Assembly (NCBI RefSeq): GCF_030817835.1
Contig: NZ_JAUSZR010000001.1
Coordinates: 1,240,001 to 1,304,000 of the forward strand
DNA from: Pseudarthrobacter sp. W1I19
GTDB taxonomy: Bacteria; Actinomycetota; Actinomycetes; Actinomycetales; Micrococcaceae
Direction: 5' to 3'
Length of the DNA stretch: 64,000 bases
The notes under the pieces were generated by a model, which made no database searches, had not been told where the DNA came from, and saw nothing but the letters and a program-made list of their open reading frames with translations. Below, piece by piece: positions 51,996 through 58,848 of the stretch (positions are counted from its first letter, which is position 1; each line of letters starts with the position of its first letter). Position numbers and translations under genes: made by a program.

Positions 51996-52003
51996 CAATG
52001 CTC

Positions 52004-53089
<1,086 letters not shown>

Positions 53090-53113
53090 TTTCTGACCTT
53101 CCTGAGGCCTTTT

Positions 53114-53153
53114 GCGATAGCCGCTAAAGAACGCTGTTCTTGGCGGCTATCGC
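53114..53153 (+). terminator. Long hairpin after ychF
   Basis: GCGATAGCCGC pairs with GCGGCTATCGC, and the inner AAGAAC/GTTCTT extends the stem to about 17 bp with a small bulge. It sits 24 bases after the stop. The T-rich exit is short (ACTTTCG). Confidence 0.75.
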
Positions 53154-53460
53154 ACTTTCGGGCCGCCCAGTCAAAGTGAAGCCGTCAGCATTTTGTCGCA
53201 CAAGGAAGAGGCTTGGTGTAATCCTGAGGCGACCGAGCCCTTCCCTCGAAAGTTTGGCGCAGTGTTTTTTGGAGACCCCTAATCCTTCCCAGATTCGACT
53301 AGGGTTCTTTGCAGCTGGGCCGATGCGTGGCGTGGAGTGGCCATCCATAGAGCGCCAGTTGTACCGCTACGGCCGCAATAACCTCGTCGCCGCAGCCAAG
53401 AACGACCAGCGGGACAACGCCCGCTGCGGCCGTAAAGGAACCGCAGCATTAGCTGGCCAC
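53154..53460. other. Gene-free stretch inside the putative insertion
   Basis: 307 bases between two hairpins. Short frames exist, but none shows coding character. It contains the AT-rich patch GTGTTTTTTGGAGACC near 53262 and a CGGCCGC...GCGGCCG inverted repeat around 53371-53435. Nothing assignable was seen. Confidence 0.5.
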
Positions 53461-53498
53461 AAAGAAGCCCTTCCCGGTGACCCGGGAAGGGCTTCTTT
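53461..53498. terminator. Perfect 17-bp hairpin, terminator of the reverse-strand membrane protein gene
   Basis: AAAGAAGCCCTTCCCGG pairs without mismatch with its complement around TGAC. With A-rich and T-rich ends it can work in both directions. It lies 62 bases beyond the stop of the gene at 53561. Confidence 0.88.
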
Positions 53499-53560
53499 GG
53501 CACTGGCTTACACCGCCACAGGCGTAGTGTCAGGGGCCCCGCCAAGCGGATCGGTGCGTC

Positions 53561-56095
53561 CTAGTAGTTGCTGTAGGTCAGCTTCACTTTGCCGTCCTCC
53601 GGGCTGACACTGGCGCTCATGGACACGGAGGTTGTATCCGTTGCGGGCTTCCAGTCAGCTGTTCCGAAACCGTATGAGTTGTCCTTCTCATAGGTGACGG
53701 TGGCTTTCCCGGGAGTCTGCGTACGGACACGCCAGGGGGAAGAGCCGTACGGATCCTTGCTCATGGTGAACGTGGGCTTCGTGGTGAGTGTCCAGTGGAA
53801 GTTCCGTGAATAGCGCGAGGAAGTGTAGTTGTTGAGCGGGCAGTTGGCGGGTTGCGCCTCGGTGGACTTCACACATTCGGCAAGATAAGCGTCGATCTCT
53901 GCCATGGCTTCGGACTTGAGGGCATCAGAGGCGTCAACCTTGAGGCTGGCGGTCGGTGGTGCCTGGGCGGCCCCGATGGTCACCAGCGCCGTCGACTTCG
54001 GAGCGGTCAAATACTTTTCCGAGGACGGCAGTTCCACGGTGTATTCACCAGGCAAAGCGGGGTAGTTCAGGCTGGATGAACCGGAAAGGCTGCCGGCGAA
54101 GTCAACGTTGAGCTCCTGACCGTTGATCAGGACGGTCTTCACCGGGGTGTCCGAGGTGATGCGCAGACTCTGAAGAGGTGTCGACTCCATGGTCCAGTGG
54201 TCGTCCAACAGCTCGGGGTTGGACTTACGGAGGCTGAACGTCGTCTGCTGCTTACGGCCGTCCTGATGCAGGTCAGCCACTACCGTGGCGTTGCCGTCGG
54301 AGACCTTCGTCGATACGATGTCGAACCCGTCAATGCGCTTGCCCGCCTTGGCATAAACCTCGTCGGAAAGCAGGACCCTTTGATCGTTGGCCAGGCCGGG
54401 ATCGGCCAGAGCCATCGCCTTGGAAGCCTCGCCGTTCTGAAGCGCCTGGAGGTAGCTGTTCACGGCCTTATCGGGACCGTTGTTGCCCTTGATGATGTTG
54501 ACGGCGATGACTCCACCAACAACCAGGACGACAACGAGACCAGCAGATCCCAGGATGAGTCCAAGCTTGCGCTTCGTGTGGGCAGACATCGGCTCCCGCG
54601 GCGCCAGCGCAGGATGATCTCCAGGGGCTGCATACCCGGTTGGAACAGCAGCAGACGCAGTCGAAGCCGGTGCCGCTGCGGTCGGCTGGGCAGGAGCGAT
54701 CCTGTAAGCCAAGGCCAGGGGCACGTACCTGCTCAACTGAGGCGCGACATAGCGTGCTGAAGCTTCTGTTGCACCGCCCCAGAGCATCAGGAAGAACGGA
54801 GTCCACCACGCCAGCGTCATGCTGCCGGCGCCCGACGCCAGTGACCCGGCGTCGAAAGTGCCGGTCACGCTGCTGAGCCACGTCATCAGCGTCCCGGCAA
54901 CGAGGAATGCGGCAGGGAGCATAGCCCAGTCAGTGATCTTGTTGCTGACCACCGGTCCTCTGCGCAGGTACCAGAACACGGAAGCCACCACGATTGAAAT
55001 CAGCGCCAGGAGGAGCAGCAACCAGCCGGCCCAACCCGGGATGCCGTACTGGGCGAGGGCATTTCCGAAACCAAAGCTGATGTCTGAACCTGAAGAATTC
55101 GCCGATGAAGCCACTGAGGAGCCGAAATTCCAGGTGCGGGTGACAGCGCTCAGGTGGCCCAGGCCAAACATGAAGAAGCCTGCCGTGGGTGCCCACAAGG
55201 GCGACGAGAGCGTGGCCTGCCACCCGGACTCGATTCCCAGAGCGAGTACAACAACCGGAATGGCAATCGCCAGAAAAACGCCGTAGTGCACGGCCACGGT
55301 TTCAAGGGCCCGGCGAACTGCCGCGCGTACCCCGACCCCGGCATCCAAACCACGCCGCACCGATGCCCGCCCCGCCAAAGTCGCGAGCGTTCCGATAACC
55401 AGCGCAAACAGGAATGAACCGAACGTCACTGCCCCGACCGGGCTGATCCTCACGCTCGGTACCGGCAACGATATGGAGAAAATCGCCCCGACGATGTTGA
55501 CCAGGAGAGCGAAGACCAGACCTGTTATTGCTGCCTCGATCCAGATTCCGGCTGTAGTTTGGGCTGCGGACCGTTTGGCGGCGTAACGCCCGCCCAGGAA
55601 CAGCACCGCGATCGACACAGCCGTCAGCAGCAAGGGAACGGCGAAGAAGGAGGCCGATCCGTGCACGTTTCCCATGAACGGGATAGTCGCGTCGATGCTC
55701 GAACCGAGCGCACCAAGCTGGCTCATGACGACCAGCTGGATGGCCAGCTGGCCCACCAGGGACCACGGCGACGGCATCGCGTCACCACTGGGGAGCACGG
55801 AATTTGACGGTATTTCGGTGTTGCCACCGTTGCTGGCGCTGATACCGATCAATGCCAGAATCAGAAAGAGGAGCGCGGTGATCAGAACCGCCACATAAGA
55901 AATGGCCCCGACCAGGGCCCCGGGAATCAAAGTTTTGTAGTCGAAAGACTTCAGAAGGCTGGTGCTGGATGCCGGTGCAGCGCCCGACCCAGGTTCTATA
56001 TGGGCATGGTCCCCTGCGCTGCCAGTGATCCGCCTGCCAGGCGCCTCATTGGTTGGTCCGGATGACCCGGTCTGCGGGTAATGCGGTTCAGTCAC
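53561..56095 (-). CDS. Large multi-helix membrane protein with external C-terminal domains, unknown function
   Basis: 844 residues from GTG 56095, which has AGGGGGAA six bases upstream. Residues about 55-480 carry some ten membrane helices (SYVAVLITALLFLILALIGISA; LLLLLALISIVVASVFWYL and others). A Pro/Ala linker leads to one more helix (LGLILGSAGLVVVLVVGGVIAVNIIKG, near 535). The last 280 residues are outside. They start NGPDKAVNSYLQALQNGEASKAMALADP, which resembles the NTF2-like/DUF4878 and TcaA-type 'ADP' domains, and continue with two beta-rich modules (VKTVLINGQELNVDFAG; the C-terminal KATVTYEKDNSYGFG). It is the only gene in the putative insertion and less GC-rich than its neighbours. 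Cell-envelope sensing is a guess. Confidence 0.78.
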   Translation of the reverse strand: MTEPHYPQTGSSGPTNEAPGRRITGSAGDHAHIEPGSGAAPASSTSLLKSFDYKTLIPGALVGAISYVAVLITALLFLILALIGISASNGGNTEIPSNSVLPSGDAMPSPWSLVGQLAIQLVVMSQLGALGSSIDATIPFMGNVHGSASFFAVPLLLTAVSIAVLFLGGRYAAKRSAAQTTAGIWIEAAITGLVFALLVNIVGAIFSISLPVPSVRISPVGAVTFGSFLFALVIGTLATLAGRASVRRGLDAGVGVRAAVRRALETVAVHYGVFLAIAIPVVVLALGIESGWQATLSSPLWAPTAGFFMFGLGHLSAVTRTWNFGSSVASSANSSGSDISFGFGNALAQYGIPGWAGWLLLLLALISIVVASVFWYLRRGPVVSNKITDWAMLPAAFLVAGTLMTWLSSVTGTFDAGSLASGAGSMTLAWWTPFFLMLWGGATEASARYVAPQLSRYVPLALAYRIAPAQPTAAAPASTASAAVPTGYAAPGDHPALAPREPMSAHTKRKLGLILGSAGLVVVLVVGGVIAVNIIKGNNGPDKAVNSYLQALQNGEASKAMALADPGLANDQRVLLSDEVYAKAGKRIDGFDIVSTKVSDGNATVVADLHQDGRKQQTTFSLRKSNPELLDDHWTMESTPLQSLRITSDTPVKTVLINGQELNVDFAGSLSGSSSLNYPALPGEYTVELPSSEKYLTAPKSTALVTIGAAQAPPTASLKVDASDALKSEAMAEIDAYLAECVKSTEAQPANCPLNNYTSSRYSRNFHWTLTTKPTFTMSKDPYGSSPWRVRTQTPGKATVTYEKDNSYGFGTADWKPATDTTSVSMSASVSPEDGKVKLTYSNY

Positions 56096-56901
56096 AACAA
56101 ATTCCCCCTAATTGGTTTTTCACTTCTCATCGTGCCACGGGCTAATTCTTGTTACGCGCACGTCTCATACATTGCGGAATTTCGGCAGCATCTGCCCTTT
56201 ATCGACGAAGGTTGCGGAAATCCCAACAACAACTCAGACAGCAGCGGCAGCAATTCCTTGGCTGCCGGCGCAGCACCACGGCCACGGCGCTTGCCGGCGG
56301 CCGCCGCGCCGGCCTTGCGTTCCACCGTCTCGTAGACGATGTAGAGACCCTCGCGGTTCAGGTGCCTGGAGTAGCTCGAATCCAGGTACAGCGTCTCGTG
56401 GGGTAGCGCACTCGGGAGGGGAGTCAGTCGAGACGCACGCGATGGAGCCCTGTTTAAATGCGCTGGGCTTGGTAATCGAGCATGCCGGGCGCCAAAACCA
56501 TGAACAGTGTGTCGCAGCCTGCAAGCATCAATCGGTGGGCCCGTTTTCGGGTCCGTTCGCAGCGGTCTTCCTGGTCACCCGCGCTTGCGCTGGATGCCAG
56601 AGAGTCCGAAGACTCCGGCTGAGCATGATGAAGTGGTGCGCCCGCCCCTCCTGCATTTCCTCGCCTTACTCGTCATTCCGCTCGCAACTGCTCTTAGCTA
56701 TTTCTTGGTTCCCGGAACCTCCTTCGCCTAGAAGGGGGACGATCGCAGTGCCGGGGTTGCTCTCGATCAACTACGTGATTCACTACATGGGGCCCGTGCA
56801 GGAAAAAGAAGCGCGGCGAACAGACGACCGGTAGGCTTGAGGCCGACAGCGAGGAAGTGGTCCGGAAATTGTCAGGTGCGGCAGAGGTTACCCGGTTACG
56901 C
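56096..56901. other. 806-base gene-free stretch at the right end of the putative insertion
   Basis: Frames here are long on paper but look random in composition. One reverse-strand stretch (stop at 56152-56154, readable up to about 56420) has coding-like character, with LYLDSSYSRHLNREGLYIVY followed by a Lys/Arg/Ala-rich part. It has no sensible start or recognisable family and may be a gene remnant. No tRNA, terminal inverted repeat or transposase signature was found. Confidence 0.5.
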
Positions 56902-56931
56902 AACGTGGTGGAATTCCGCTTCAACGTCTAG
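56902..56931 (+). pseudogene. Displaced 3' end of ychF
   Basis: Codons for NVVEFRFNV and TAG repeat the end of YchF (DVVEFRFNV) with GC-rich codons. Immediately upstream in this frame the residues (AEVTRLR) have no YchF similarity. It is therefore only the last few codons, apparently cut off from the gene that ends at 53089. Confidence 0.65.
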
Positions 56932-56937
56932 GTGTTT

Positions 56938-56953
56938 CGCCACGATAGTGGCG
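56938..56953 (+). terminator. Hairpin after the displaced ychF end
   Basis: CGCCAC pairs with GTGGCG around GATA, six bases after the displaced stop. It is the size and place of an original ychF terminator but has no T-run. Confidence 0.35.
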
Positions 56954-57075: not shown

Positions 57076-58848
57076 ATGCCGGTCAGGCGTCTGATGCAGT
57101 TCATCACCGCGGCGGCAGCGTCTGCGCTGGTGCTTTCGGGCTGCTCAGGCGGCGGAGGCACCACCCCGGTTGTGGCGGGGGAGTCCAAGCGCGGCGGCAG
57201 TGTCACCGTTGCCGAAGTCAACGCGTTCTCGTCGTTTAATCCCTACAGCGCCGACGGCAACACCGACATCAACTCCAAGATCGGCTCGATTACGCACTCG
57301 GGCTTCTACTACCTCGATGATGCGTCCAAAGTGGTGCGGAACGAAAAGTTCGGGCGGTTCGAGAAGGTTTCCGACAATCCCCTAAAGGTGAAATACACCG
57401 TCAACGAGGGCGTGAAATGGTCCGACGGCGAGGCGATCGATTCGGGTGACCTCCTGCTGGCCTGGGCTGCGGGTTCAGGCTACTTCAACGATGCCGATCC
57501 CATGGCCGGAACAGGAACCACGTACTTCTCCATCGCCTCCGACACCAGCGGGCTGGCAGGAACCGTCCTCCCCGAGCTCGGGGAGGATGGGCGCTCCATG
57601 ACCCTGGAGTATGCCGTGCCGTACGCGGACTGGGAGGTGGCGTTCGACGTCGGCCTGCCGGCCCATGTGGTGGCCGCAAAAAGCGGCCTGAACGATGAGG
57701 AAGACCTCATCGACCTGATCAAGGATTCACCCCGCGGGGACGTCGGGAAACCCGTGCCCAACACCGCGCTGAAGCGGGTCAGTGACTTCTGGAACTCCGG
57801 GTTCGATACCAAGTCACTGCCCGCAGACCCTTCGGTCTACCTCTCAAGCGGGCCCTACATCGTCCGGGACATTGTCCCGGAGTCGTCCATGAAGCTGGTC
57901 CGCAACCGGGACTACACCTGGGGCCAGGAGCCCTGGCTGGATGAGATCAGCATCCGGTTTACCGGAGCTTTGCCTGCCGCCGTGGATGCCTTGCGGAACG
58001 GTCAGGCGGACATCATCTCGCCTCAGCCTTCGGCCGAAACGGACAGCCTTTTCGCGGGCCTCGCCGAGCAGGGGAACACGGTGGACCGTTACAGCCAATC
58101 CGGCTATGACCACCTGGACCTGAATTTTTCCGGACCCTTTGCCGACGAGGACGTCCGGAAGGCATTCCTCAAGGCAGTGCCGCGCCAGGCCATAGTTGAT
58201 GCCGTCGTCGGCGGCCTCCTGCCTGACCCGAAGCCCCTTGACTCGCACGTGTTCCTGCCAGGACAGCCCAAGTACGCCGACACCGTAAAAAACAACGGCT
58301 CCGTCGACTATGCGGAGGTGGACATCGATGCAGCGAAGGCGCTCCTGGATGGTGAAACCCCTACCGTCCGCATCCTGTACAACCGCGACAACCCCAACCG
58401 GGCCAAGGCTTTTGCCCTGATTCGCGATTCCGCAGCGCTGGCAGGCTTCCAGGTGGTGGACGCCGGACAGGGCAGCGCCGACTGGGCGAAGGCTTTGGGA
58501 GGCGGCAGCTACGACGCTGCATTGCTCGGCTGGATCGGCACCGGGGTGGGCGTCAGCCGCGTTCCCCAGATCTTCCGCACCGGTGCTGGCAGCAACTTCA
58601 ATGGATTTTCCGACGGCGAAGCGGACAAGGCGATGGAACAGCTCGCCGGCACCACCGACCTTGCCAAACAGGACGAACTGCTGGCCGAAGTTGACAAGCA
58701 GGTGTGGGGGAACGCCTACGGGCTGCCGCTTTACCAGACCGTAGGCACCACCGCTTACAGTGCCCGCGTTGCCGGCGTGAAGCCAAGCGCAGGACCGCTG
58801 GGGGTTTGGTGGAACGTCTGGGACTGGCGCCTCACCAAGAGCCCGTAA
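57076..58848 (+). CDS. ABC transporter substrate-binding lipoprotein, family 5 (oligopeptide/dipeptide type)
   Basis: 590 residues from ATG 57076 with AAGGAGG upstream. The signal peptide MPVRRLMQFITAAAASALVLSGC has lipobox LSGC. The family-5 binding protein body includes LKVKYTVNEGVKWSDGEAIDSGDLLLAW (the signature strand), YLSSGPYIVRDIVPESSMKLVRNRDY, DEDVRKAFLKAVPRQAIVDAV and a C-terminal NAYGLPLYQTVGTTAY. It precedes a second binding protein gene by 267 bases and is the first gene of the transport cluster. A possible -10 box TATCCT lies at 57004-57009. It should bind peptides outside the membrane and hand them to the permeases encoded downstream, but pairing is inferred. Confidence 0.92.
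   Translation: MPVRRLMQFITAAAASALVLSGCSGGGGTTPVVAGESKRGGSVTVAEVNAFSSFNPYSADGNTDINSKIGSITHSGFYYLDDASKVVRNEKFGRFEKVSDNPLKVKYTVNEGVKWSDGEAIDSGDLLLAWAAGSGYFNDADPMAGTGTTYFSIASDTSGLAGTVLPELGEDGRSMTLEYAVPYADWEVAFDVGLPAHVVAAKSGLNDEEDLIDLIKDSPRGDVGKPVPNTALKRVSDFWNSGFDTKSLPADPSVYLSSGPYIVRDIVPESSMKLVRNRDYTWGQEPWLDEISIRFTGALPAAVDALRNGQADIISPQPSAETDSLFAGLAEQGNTVDRYSQSGYDHLDLNFSGPFADEDVRKAFLKAVPRQAIVDAVVGGLLPDPKPLDSHVFLPGQPKYADTVKNNGSVDYAEVDIDAAKALLDGETPTVRILYNRDNPNRAKAFALIRDSAALAGFQVVDAGQGSADWAKALGGGSYDAALLGWIGTGVGVSRVPQIFRTGAGSNFNGFSDGEADKAMEQLAGTTDLAKQDELLAEVDKQVWGNAYGLPLYQTVGTTAYSARVAGVKPSAGPLGVWWNVWDWRLTKSP

Follow-up and report, generated by a model that had tools for sequence, protein, structure and literature searches.

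Tail copies of ychF bracket a probable mobile cassette in Pseudarthrobacter sp. W1I19 and recur in arrays across the family

We analysed a 64,000-nucleotide stretch of the Pseudarthrobacter sp. W1I19 genome (the window, G000:C1:1240001-1304000; here and below, G labels denote genomes and L labels stretches of DNA) in which two differently coded copies of the end of ychF, hereafter tails, enclose a 3.84-kb segment. We consider it likely, with a probability of about 0.7, that this segment is a mobile cassette that entered ychF as a circle, in a site-specific manner and through a large serine recombinase acting in trans. This reading is carried by sites with defined ends, an empty site in a related genome, tandem arrays with unrelated cargo, one cassette found in two genera, a clade of recombinases that lies inside such arrays, half-motifs upstream of several of the recombinase genes and, in one case, an exchange that maps to a GT dinucleotide.

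In the window, ychF occupies 51998..53089 on the forward strand (363 amino acids, aa) and would be the integration target, with its last codons supplied by the cassette; the gene was detected in all 101 sampled genomes of the genus. As the initial annotation of this DNA reported, VVEFRFNV and a TAG stop are encoded twice, at 53063..53089 in frame with ychF and again at 56905..56931, with synonymous differences in seven of the eight sense codons. The attached tail (forward strand; GTA GTT GAA TTT AGA TTT AAT GTG TAG) is the AT-rich copy with AGA, as had been observed, and is read as the cassette-borne left half-site, while the detached tail (forward strand; GTG GTG GAA TTC CGC TTC AAC GTC TAG), the copy with TTC CGC, is read as the displaced native end of ychF. 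The same annotation had proposed that foreign DNA entered at the ychF 3' end, supplied its own tail and displaced the native tail together with its terminator, and had predicted an empty site. Such a site exists in G200 (L105), in which ychF ends GTAGTGGAATTCCGCTTCAACGTCTAG and is followed directly by gtgtttcgccacgatagtggcg..., the DNA found at window position 56932; ychF is 98.1% identical between the two genomes and the native flank 95.0% identical over 1.9 kb. The G200 comparison agrees with the proposal, as the empty site implies that 3.84 kb was inserted and that the attached AT-rich tail is the newcomer's. Together with the pattern controls described below, it also bears out the statement that this is no recent tandem duplication. 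Chance recurrence of the tail was considered as well, and is ruled out by the reversed-pattern controls and the G200 empty site. One earlier claim needs correction, namely that the interior is less GC-rich: it is hardly so, with the GC of 500-base windows at 0.57-0.63 inside the segment against 0.57-0.67 for the flanking DNA read. Composition therefore counts for little here, and the comparative evidence is decisive.

The tail starts allow the point of exchange to be narrowed. They read GTA GTG GAA (then TTC CGC) in G200, GTA GTT GAA at the left end of the window cassette and GTG GTG GAA at its right end. If G200 represents the old state, the exchange would lie between tail bases 3 and 6, where only GT is common; a second copy of the window cassette, in G299, also has GTT, with the same left half and flank as the window. 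Among 28 pairs with the same right end, 21 of which represent one cassette in seven genomes, the mismatch frequency is 0.00-0.04 through base 5, 0.29 at base 6 and 0.50 at base 9.

The genome collection was scanned with a pattern for the cargo protein of the window cassette, an approach that detects close relatives only; two were found. In Paenarthrobacter sp. PH39-S1 (G299) the cassette copy is 88.5% identical to that of the window over 3,404 columns (3.4 kb) in the same orientation; its homology begins at the tail, and it sits within a tail array. The ychF genes of these two genomes are only 81.9% identical, and the higher identity of the cassette makes its transfer between genera likely.

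To place the window in a wider context, the coding pattern GTNGTNGARTTYMGNTTYAAYGTN plus stop was searched in 206 genomes of the genus, with the reversed pattern as a control. It occurs with TAG in 103 of the 206 and with TAA or TGA in 111, against 0 for the control, and 24 genomes (hand count) carry at least two tail copies, in most cases all behind ychF on a single contig and in the same orientation. Across the family, 354 of 395 genomes match and 85 have at least two copies (hand count), these counts taking in TGG as a "stop" and copies remote from ychF. As many as seven tails share one contig in G349, six in G209, and five each in G469 and G384. The expectation that other genomes would hold different cargo between the same two tails was likewise borne out wherever arrays were examined, the sample of genomes with two or more tails being 23 of the 24 in the genus for the motif (all but G204) and 30 of 77 in other genera. 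Scanning 92 stretches (the window, L064-L119 and L182-L216), for which many AT-tailed single-tail loci were sampled deliberately, gave 182 distinct tails, 79 filed as attached and 103 as detached by a simple rule that misfiled at least one (L068 2074) as attached. Of the 44 arrays that start at ychF, 27 open with an AT-type tail and 29 close with a GC-type one, an order that is a tendency rather than a rule. These arrays bear on whether the window segment might instead be a one-off relic of a genomic island, with decayed mobility genes and no standing cassette system. The degenerate right part of the window cassette (56096-56882), its lack of a recombinase and the broken tails seen elsewhere fit such a relic, yet the same two ends surround unrelated cargo in many genera, arrays reach seven tails, and the same cassette is present in two genera with an intact left end. 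We regard this explanation as quite unlikely.

Immediately upstream of the 103 detached tails lies a common 22-nt motif, AGAGGTTATTCGGYTACGGAAC (tails too close to a stretch end were excluded from the motif analysis). Its information content is 0.85 bits at position -22, at most 0.14 bits at -23 to -40 and up to 1.55 bits inside; by eye it has no fixed internal hairpin, and position -11 holds 0.19 bits. On the basis of this motif, the right half-site of the window cassette is placed at 56883..56904 (22 bp, forward strand; AGAGGTTACCCGGTTACGCAAC). The right end plus core, with at most one mismatch, is found at 34 places in 22 of the 206 genomes, compared with 4 for the reversed pattern. The abrupt start of the motif and its recurrence beside unrelated cargo in many right ends also argue against homologous recombination between ychF ends after DNA uptake, in which no site-specific enzyme would take part. 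Exchange at the borders of core genes is common, and the tails are partly alike; AT-rich and GC-rich tails nevertheless have only short identical runs in common, and we judge this route highly improbable.

The DNA delimited by tails is diverse. A typical cassette consists of a left half-site that doubles as the final ychF codons, then a hairpin, the cargo and a 22-bp right half-site. The 90 intervals between tails have a median length of 2.6 kb and extend up to 12.3 kb; one of them is a 23-bp overlap of two tails (L082), and intervals spanning two stretches (e.g. in G044, G177, G185 and G421) are counted outside the 90. No integrase had been visible in the window cassette on first inspection, which holds both there and in the 90 delimited intervals for tyrosine and large serine recombinases. 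The intervals contain 332 predicted open reading frames (ORFs), 182 on the forward and 150 on the reverse strand, in 271 clusters. Pfam and PADLOC were applied to 139 cluster representatives of at least 170 aa (the window's own excluded), and family matches were taken from the first 25 families of each list, PADLOC matches being to single proteins and not to whole systems. Among those listed, defence-protein matches comprise GmrSD, NACHT, KAP, AbiD, PifA, DrmD, HEC-06, AbiEi and RmrA; the cargo also includes dehydrogenases and transporters, and in two genomes a formate dehydrogenase set with selenocysteine genes (by eye; SelA by Pfam). This formate dehydrogenase cassette, of about 11 kb, is nearly the same in two genomes of the genus (L065 1299-10446 and L080 1586-10733, oriented). 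Seven genomes, all from one genus, share a cassette of 1,165-1,168 bp.

The flanks of the tails also have features in common. For all tails, the native ones among them, the 80 bases on the 3' side have stronger folding than control sequence 400 bases further on (medians -32.5 and -25.9 kcal/mol; 168 flanks, p = 2e-11), in keeping with a terminator brought along, and CTGA stands at offset 3 or 9 past the stop in 56 of 169 flanks compared with one in the control stretch. In the window, a strong hairpin at 53114..53153 (forward strand; GCGATAGCCGCTAAAGAAC...GTTCTTGGCGGCTATCGC), also present in G299, is taken as a terminator brought by the cassette; the region 53090-53175 has a folding energy of -40.1 kcal/mol. 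The cargo gene follows on the reverse strand at 53561..56095 and encodes an 844-aa protein with membrane segments by eye, which matched 0 Pfam and 0 PADLOC families. The right part of the cassette, at 56096..56882 and given no strand, contains no clear gene, and its homology to the G299 cassette stops at about 56460. Beyond the detached tail lies the displaced short native hairpin of ychF at 56938..56953 (forward strand; CGCCACGATAGTGGCG), which stands directly behind ychF in G200, and then the first native gene past the site (57076..58848, forward strand), which we take to encode a transporter solute-binding protein and which marks the chromosomal flank.

Right-end matches away from ychF reveal what a complete site looks like. 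In L265 and L266 they are full near-palindromes beside defence-like genes, for example AGAGGTTTTCTAGGTACGGAAC-GTGGTGGA-GTTCCGTCACGGAATAACCTCT, 52 bp in which two 22-bp arms stand around GTGGTGGA; in G096, ychF itself runs on into the right arm. A family-wide search for the arm behind the core found 19 places in 18 of the 395 genomes, from 12 genera (control 0), and at 15 of the 19 the arm is joined to ychF. At these 15 places the YchF protein ends with VVEFRHGITSAxQGKK (10), VVEFRSGLTSGGKK (4) or VVEFRHGQTSGSKK (1), replacing VVEFRFNV. As the FNV, HGITSAxQGKK and SGLTSGGKK endings all run in frame to a stop, the half-site is coding in all versions. In the stretches concerned (L295-L312), the YchF of 15 genomes ends HGITSAxQGKK, SGLTSGGKK or HGQTSGSKK and not FNV, an end that the inserted element supplies. 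By analogy, a 52-bp palindrome with exchange at a central dinucleotide has the geometry expected of large serine integrases, a likeness that was recognised before serine recombinases turned up at these sites.

The recombinases came from a search of 20 stretches adjoining the sites of the 18 arm-bearing genomes, using a model derived from nine seed sequences, all serine recombinases from this genus. The 20 stretches hold seven full recombinase genes, a part of one and three smaller frames of 194-280 aa. By direct comparison, relatives of the recombinase are present in 9 of the 18 arm genomes; all 9 belong to the 15 whose arm is joined to ychF, and 0 of the other 3 has one. Seven of them are 50-85% identical to one another and the one in L329 is 36-50% identical to those seven, while identity between this clade and other serine recombinases of the genus is about 30% among the listed pairs. 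The model search found no tyrosine recombinase in the 20 stretches beside palindrome-arm sites, and no large serine recombinase was found in the other stretches examined, the nine seeds apart. A single contig of G349 carries ychF and seven tails, with the recombinase gene positioned between them; G299 also has the recombinase, on a contig other than that of its window-cassette copy. Both PF00239 (Resolvase) and PF07508 (Recombinase) are present in the large serine recombinase P0001, a 504-aa protein of Arthrobacter sp. I2-34, whose best NCBIfam model is CcrB, at 80.3 bits against a cut-off of 900 and over residues 5-201 only. Relatives of the clade occur in many Actinobacteria (590 proteins at E <=1e-60 among 7,993 candidates scored); none was found in viral contigs, and phage relatives reach about 31% identity at best.

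The right-end motif also occurs 48-79 bp before the catalytic YxRIS in five recombinase genes, in one orientation, with scores of 23.3, 20.7, 16.8, 10.5 and 8.2, and 20 bp before the start of a truncated sixth (score 21.5). In a masked background of 982,914 positions, hits included, 12 score at least 16.8, 48 at least 10 and 125 at least 8; against an unmasked background, in which genuine sites remained, the fractions for the five genes were 0.009-0.037. Serine resolvases in the vicinity of the arrays had been another candidate and were rejected: a PF00239 search of 14 genomes, 13 of which matched, gave no match inside any array, and one fragment stands 2.5 kb beyond the last tail of G088.

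Several observations weigh against a serine-recombinase cassette system as set out here. For 9 of the 18 arm-bearing genomes, no relative lies in the fetched stretch (6-20 kb). The window genome is without a recombinase of the clade, its PF00239 matches being a 259-aa frame and fragments, as are many other carriers, among them G044, which lacks any PF00239 match. The half-motif that precedes recombinase genes has no GTGGTGGA after it, and may represent an operator or a relic; of the five scores, two are weak (10.5 and 8.2), no motif lies directly upstream in L321 or L329 (L321 has one of 22.7 about 0.55 kb up), and a scan at 16 gave no upstream motif in the G299 stretch L320. The cassette site is absent from the IMG/VR viral contigs and phages searched, and plasmids gave only chance-level site matches, three at E 0.3-1. 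Left tails with identical 60-base flanks vary at bases 3, 6 and 15, which is unexpected for a pure two-base exchange, barring later mutation or conversion. Some right ends deviate from the 22-nt motif (e.g. L191 and L207). Pseudarthrobacter sp. Fe7 (G179) has the window cargo gene inverted, between ychF and the native flank and without either window end, and insertion sequences are present in the cargo, as indicated by the transposase domains rve and DDE_Tnp_1 in one representative each.

A second kind of recombinase is found at the same gene end. In ten genomes a tyrosine integrase lies 35-44 bp from a ychF-type tail and reads towards it; integrase matches with at least 69% identity number 11, and all show this placement except a partial frame in G117, which is 32 kb off. 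The genomes are G080, G034, G067, G181, G016, G151, G191, G096, G060 and G164 (stretches L089, L154-L162, L166 and L216-L233), and the tail in G096 is a detached one. Integrase fragments adjoin a tail in three more loci (L013, L029/L054 and L055). Far ends were found for five of the elements, with ACGTT-CCGCTTC-AACGT kept in G181, G151, G164 and G096 and CCGTTTC in G060, and were not found for G080, G034, G067, G016 and G191. All ten tails beside an integrase are GC-type; AT-type tails (TTTAGR) lack CCGCTTC, and the attached tail of the window reads TTTAGATTT where this integrase core would stand. What these far ends keep looks like an ordinary integrase core, its arms inverted and its overlap 7 bp long, and distinct from the cassette site; two unrelated recombination systems apparently use one gene end, within the same 27 bases. 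That the cassette tail shields ychF from such prophages is speculation. The 75-kb element of G096 contains no tyrosine or large serine recombinase by the models used. Outside the window, a frame-broken relative (50%) of the ychF-tail integrase at G000:C1:1065033-1065962 (L143) adjoins what we assume to be the 3' end of yajQ, which is probably another gene-end target.

Could these integrases, or a resident host recombinase, have moved the cassettes? If tyrosine integrases at the ychF 3' end did so, cassettes would be remnants or satellites of prophage-like elements, a view favoured by the ten integrases facing a tail and by G080 and G096, where integrase elements stand beside a cassette-type right half-site. 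The far ends of the integrase elements, where found, nonetheless show what is apparently another core, with its 7-bp overlap elsewhere in the tail, which AT-rich cassette tails lack; none of the delimited cassettes contains a tyrosine integrase; and in G193, G405 and G422, which carry cassettes, the PF00589 proteins number just two, presumed to be XerC and XerD. This origin is unlikely in our assessment. Those same three carriers, in which the two proteins are XerC and XerD by score, would suit insertion at the ychF site by the resident XerC/XerD, as with elements that use dif. The association with serine recombinases would then be left unexplained, and the cassette site, with its 22-bp arms, 8-bp centre and GT exchange, is unlike dif as generally known, no dif sequence having been compared; we hold insertion by XerC/XerD to be very unlikely.

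Under the preferred reading of a mobile cassette moved by a serine recombinase, joining of the cassette ends would form an attachment site akin to the 52-bp near-palindrome, with 22-bp arms around GTGGTGGA, and the target would be the ychF codons ...GAC GTG GTG GAG TTC CGC.... Exchange at the central GT would give ychF the cassette's version of the last codons and the hairpin, and would displace the native tail to the opposite end of the cassette, creating a palindromic core there (typically CGGAAC-GTGGTGGA-GTTCCG). A further cassette could then add at that core or at ychF itself. We infer the circular intermediate, the identity of the catalyst, its action in trans on cassettes that lack a recombinase, and the direction of array growth.

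A few loci show tails in other settings. In G479:C2 (L205 5322-5978), the last 93 residues of a chimeric ORF on a second contig are a YchF C-terminus with a docking tail, possibly a docking platform without the whole of ychF. Tails or full palindromic sites remote from ychF are found in L198 (G349:C19), L087 (G194), L265 and L266, some adjoining toxin-antitoxin-like or defence-like genes (by eye); we read such sites as secondary sites or moved arrays. At L082 2331-2380 (oriented), four bases (GTAG) are common to two overlapping tails, the TAG end of one forming the start of the next, which we read as a tail inserted into or beside another.

We tentatively suggest, while holding it short of probable, that ychF is the docking platform of a family-wide, integron-like cassette-chromosome system in which every cassette has an interchangeable YchF C-terminus as half of its recombination site, cargo and YchF tail (FNV or HGITSAxQGKK) are swapped together and re-coded tails remove the overlap used by prophage integrases. 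To our knowledge, few gene-capture platforms are known in detail: integrons, and the cassette chromosomes at rlmH in Firmicutes. If the suggestion is true, the Arthrobacter family would hold a further platform that has a site to itself, a candidate recombinase and abundant cargo already in view. Cassettes can readily be listed by their tail copies, so that gene flow among genera would be directly readable; a serine recombinase would gain a likely natural target in a conserved gene; and the role of the last YchF residues becomes a testable question. No description of such a ychF-docked system was found in the literature searched (titles and abstract openings, with subscription journals outside its range).

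Among known systems, the functionally closest appear to be the cassette chromosomes SCC of staphylococci and ECC of Enterococcus faecium, in which CcrAB or CcrC acts at the 3' end of rlmH. Tandem composites and recombinase-less elements are known for SCC, and the hosts of SCC and ECC belong to another phylum than those of the ychF cassettes. As described in one account, these systems combine variable cargo with a serine recombinase that works at a housekeeping gene's 3' end, on sites that measure about 50 bp and contain inverted repeats (PMC6222049). The ychF cassettes resemble them in having a large serine recombinase in elements at the site (9 of 18 arm genomes; not the window cassette), in the use of a conserved housekeeping gene's 3' terminus, which the element supplies, in very variable cargo, and in a site of comparable kind, the 52-bp near-palindrome of L265 and L266. 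They are nevertheless not members of SCC/ECC: the target is ychF and not rlmH, there is one recombinase, CcrB-like in its N-terminal part only and far below the cut-off, and the central motif is another, with no TATCATAA. Arrays of up to seven tails, small cassettes and alternative YchF C-termini further set the ychF system apart.

Integrons are similar in their arrays of small units with one half-site pattern, unrelated cargo and no site-specific recombinase seen in the cassette, but the ychF-cassette site is palindromic and serves at the same time as a coding end, a housekeeping gene forms the platform, and cassette genes lie on both strands. No integron integrase was found in the 90 delimited cassettes, and beside ychF tails only the prophage-type clade and fragments were seen. 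A pneumococcal prophage is reported to lie 5' of ychF (PMC6375853). Islands and prophages with tyrosine integrases likewise use a gene 3' end and restore the gene, here at the same ychF tail; they differ in having the integrase inside the element and a core and overlap that are apparently other than those of the cassette.

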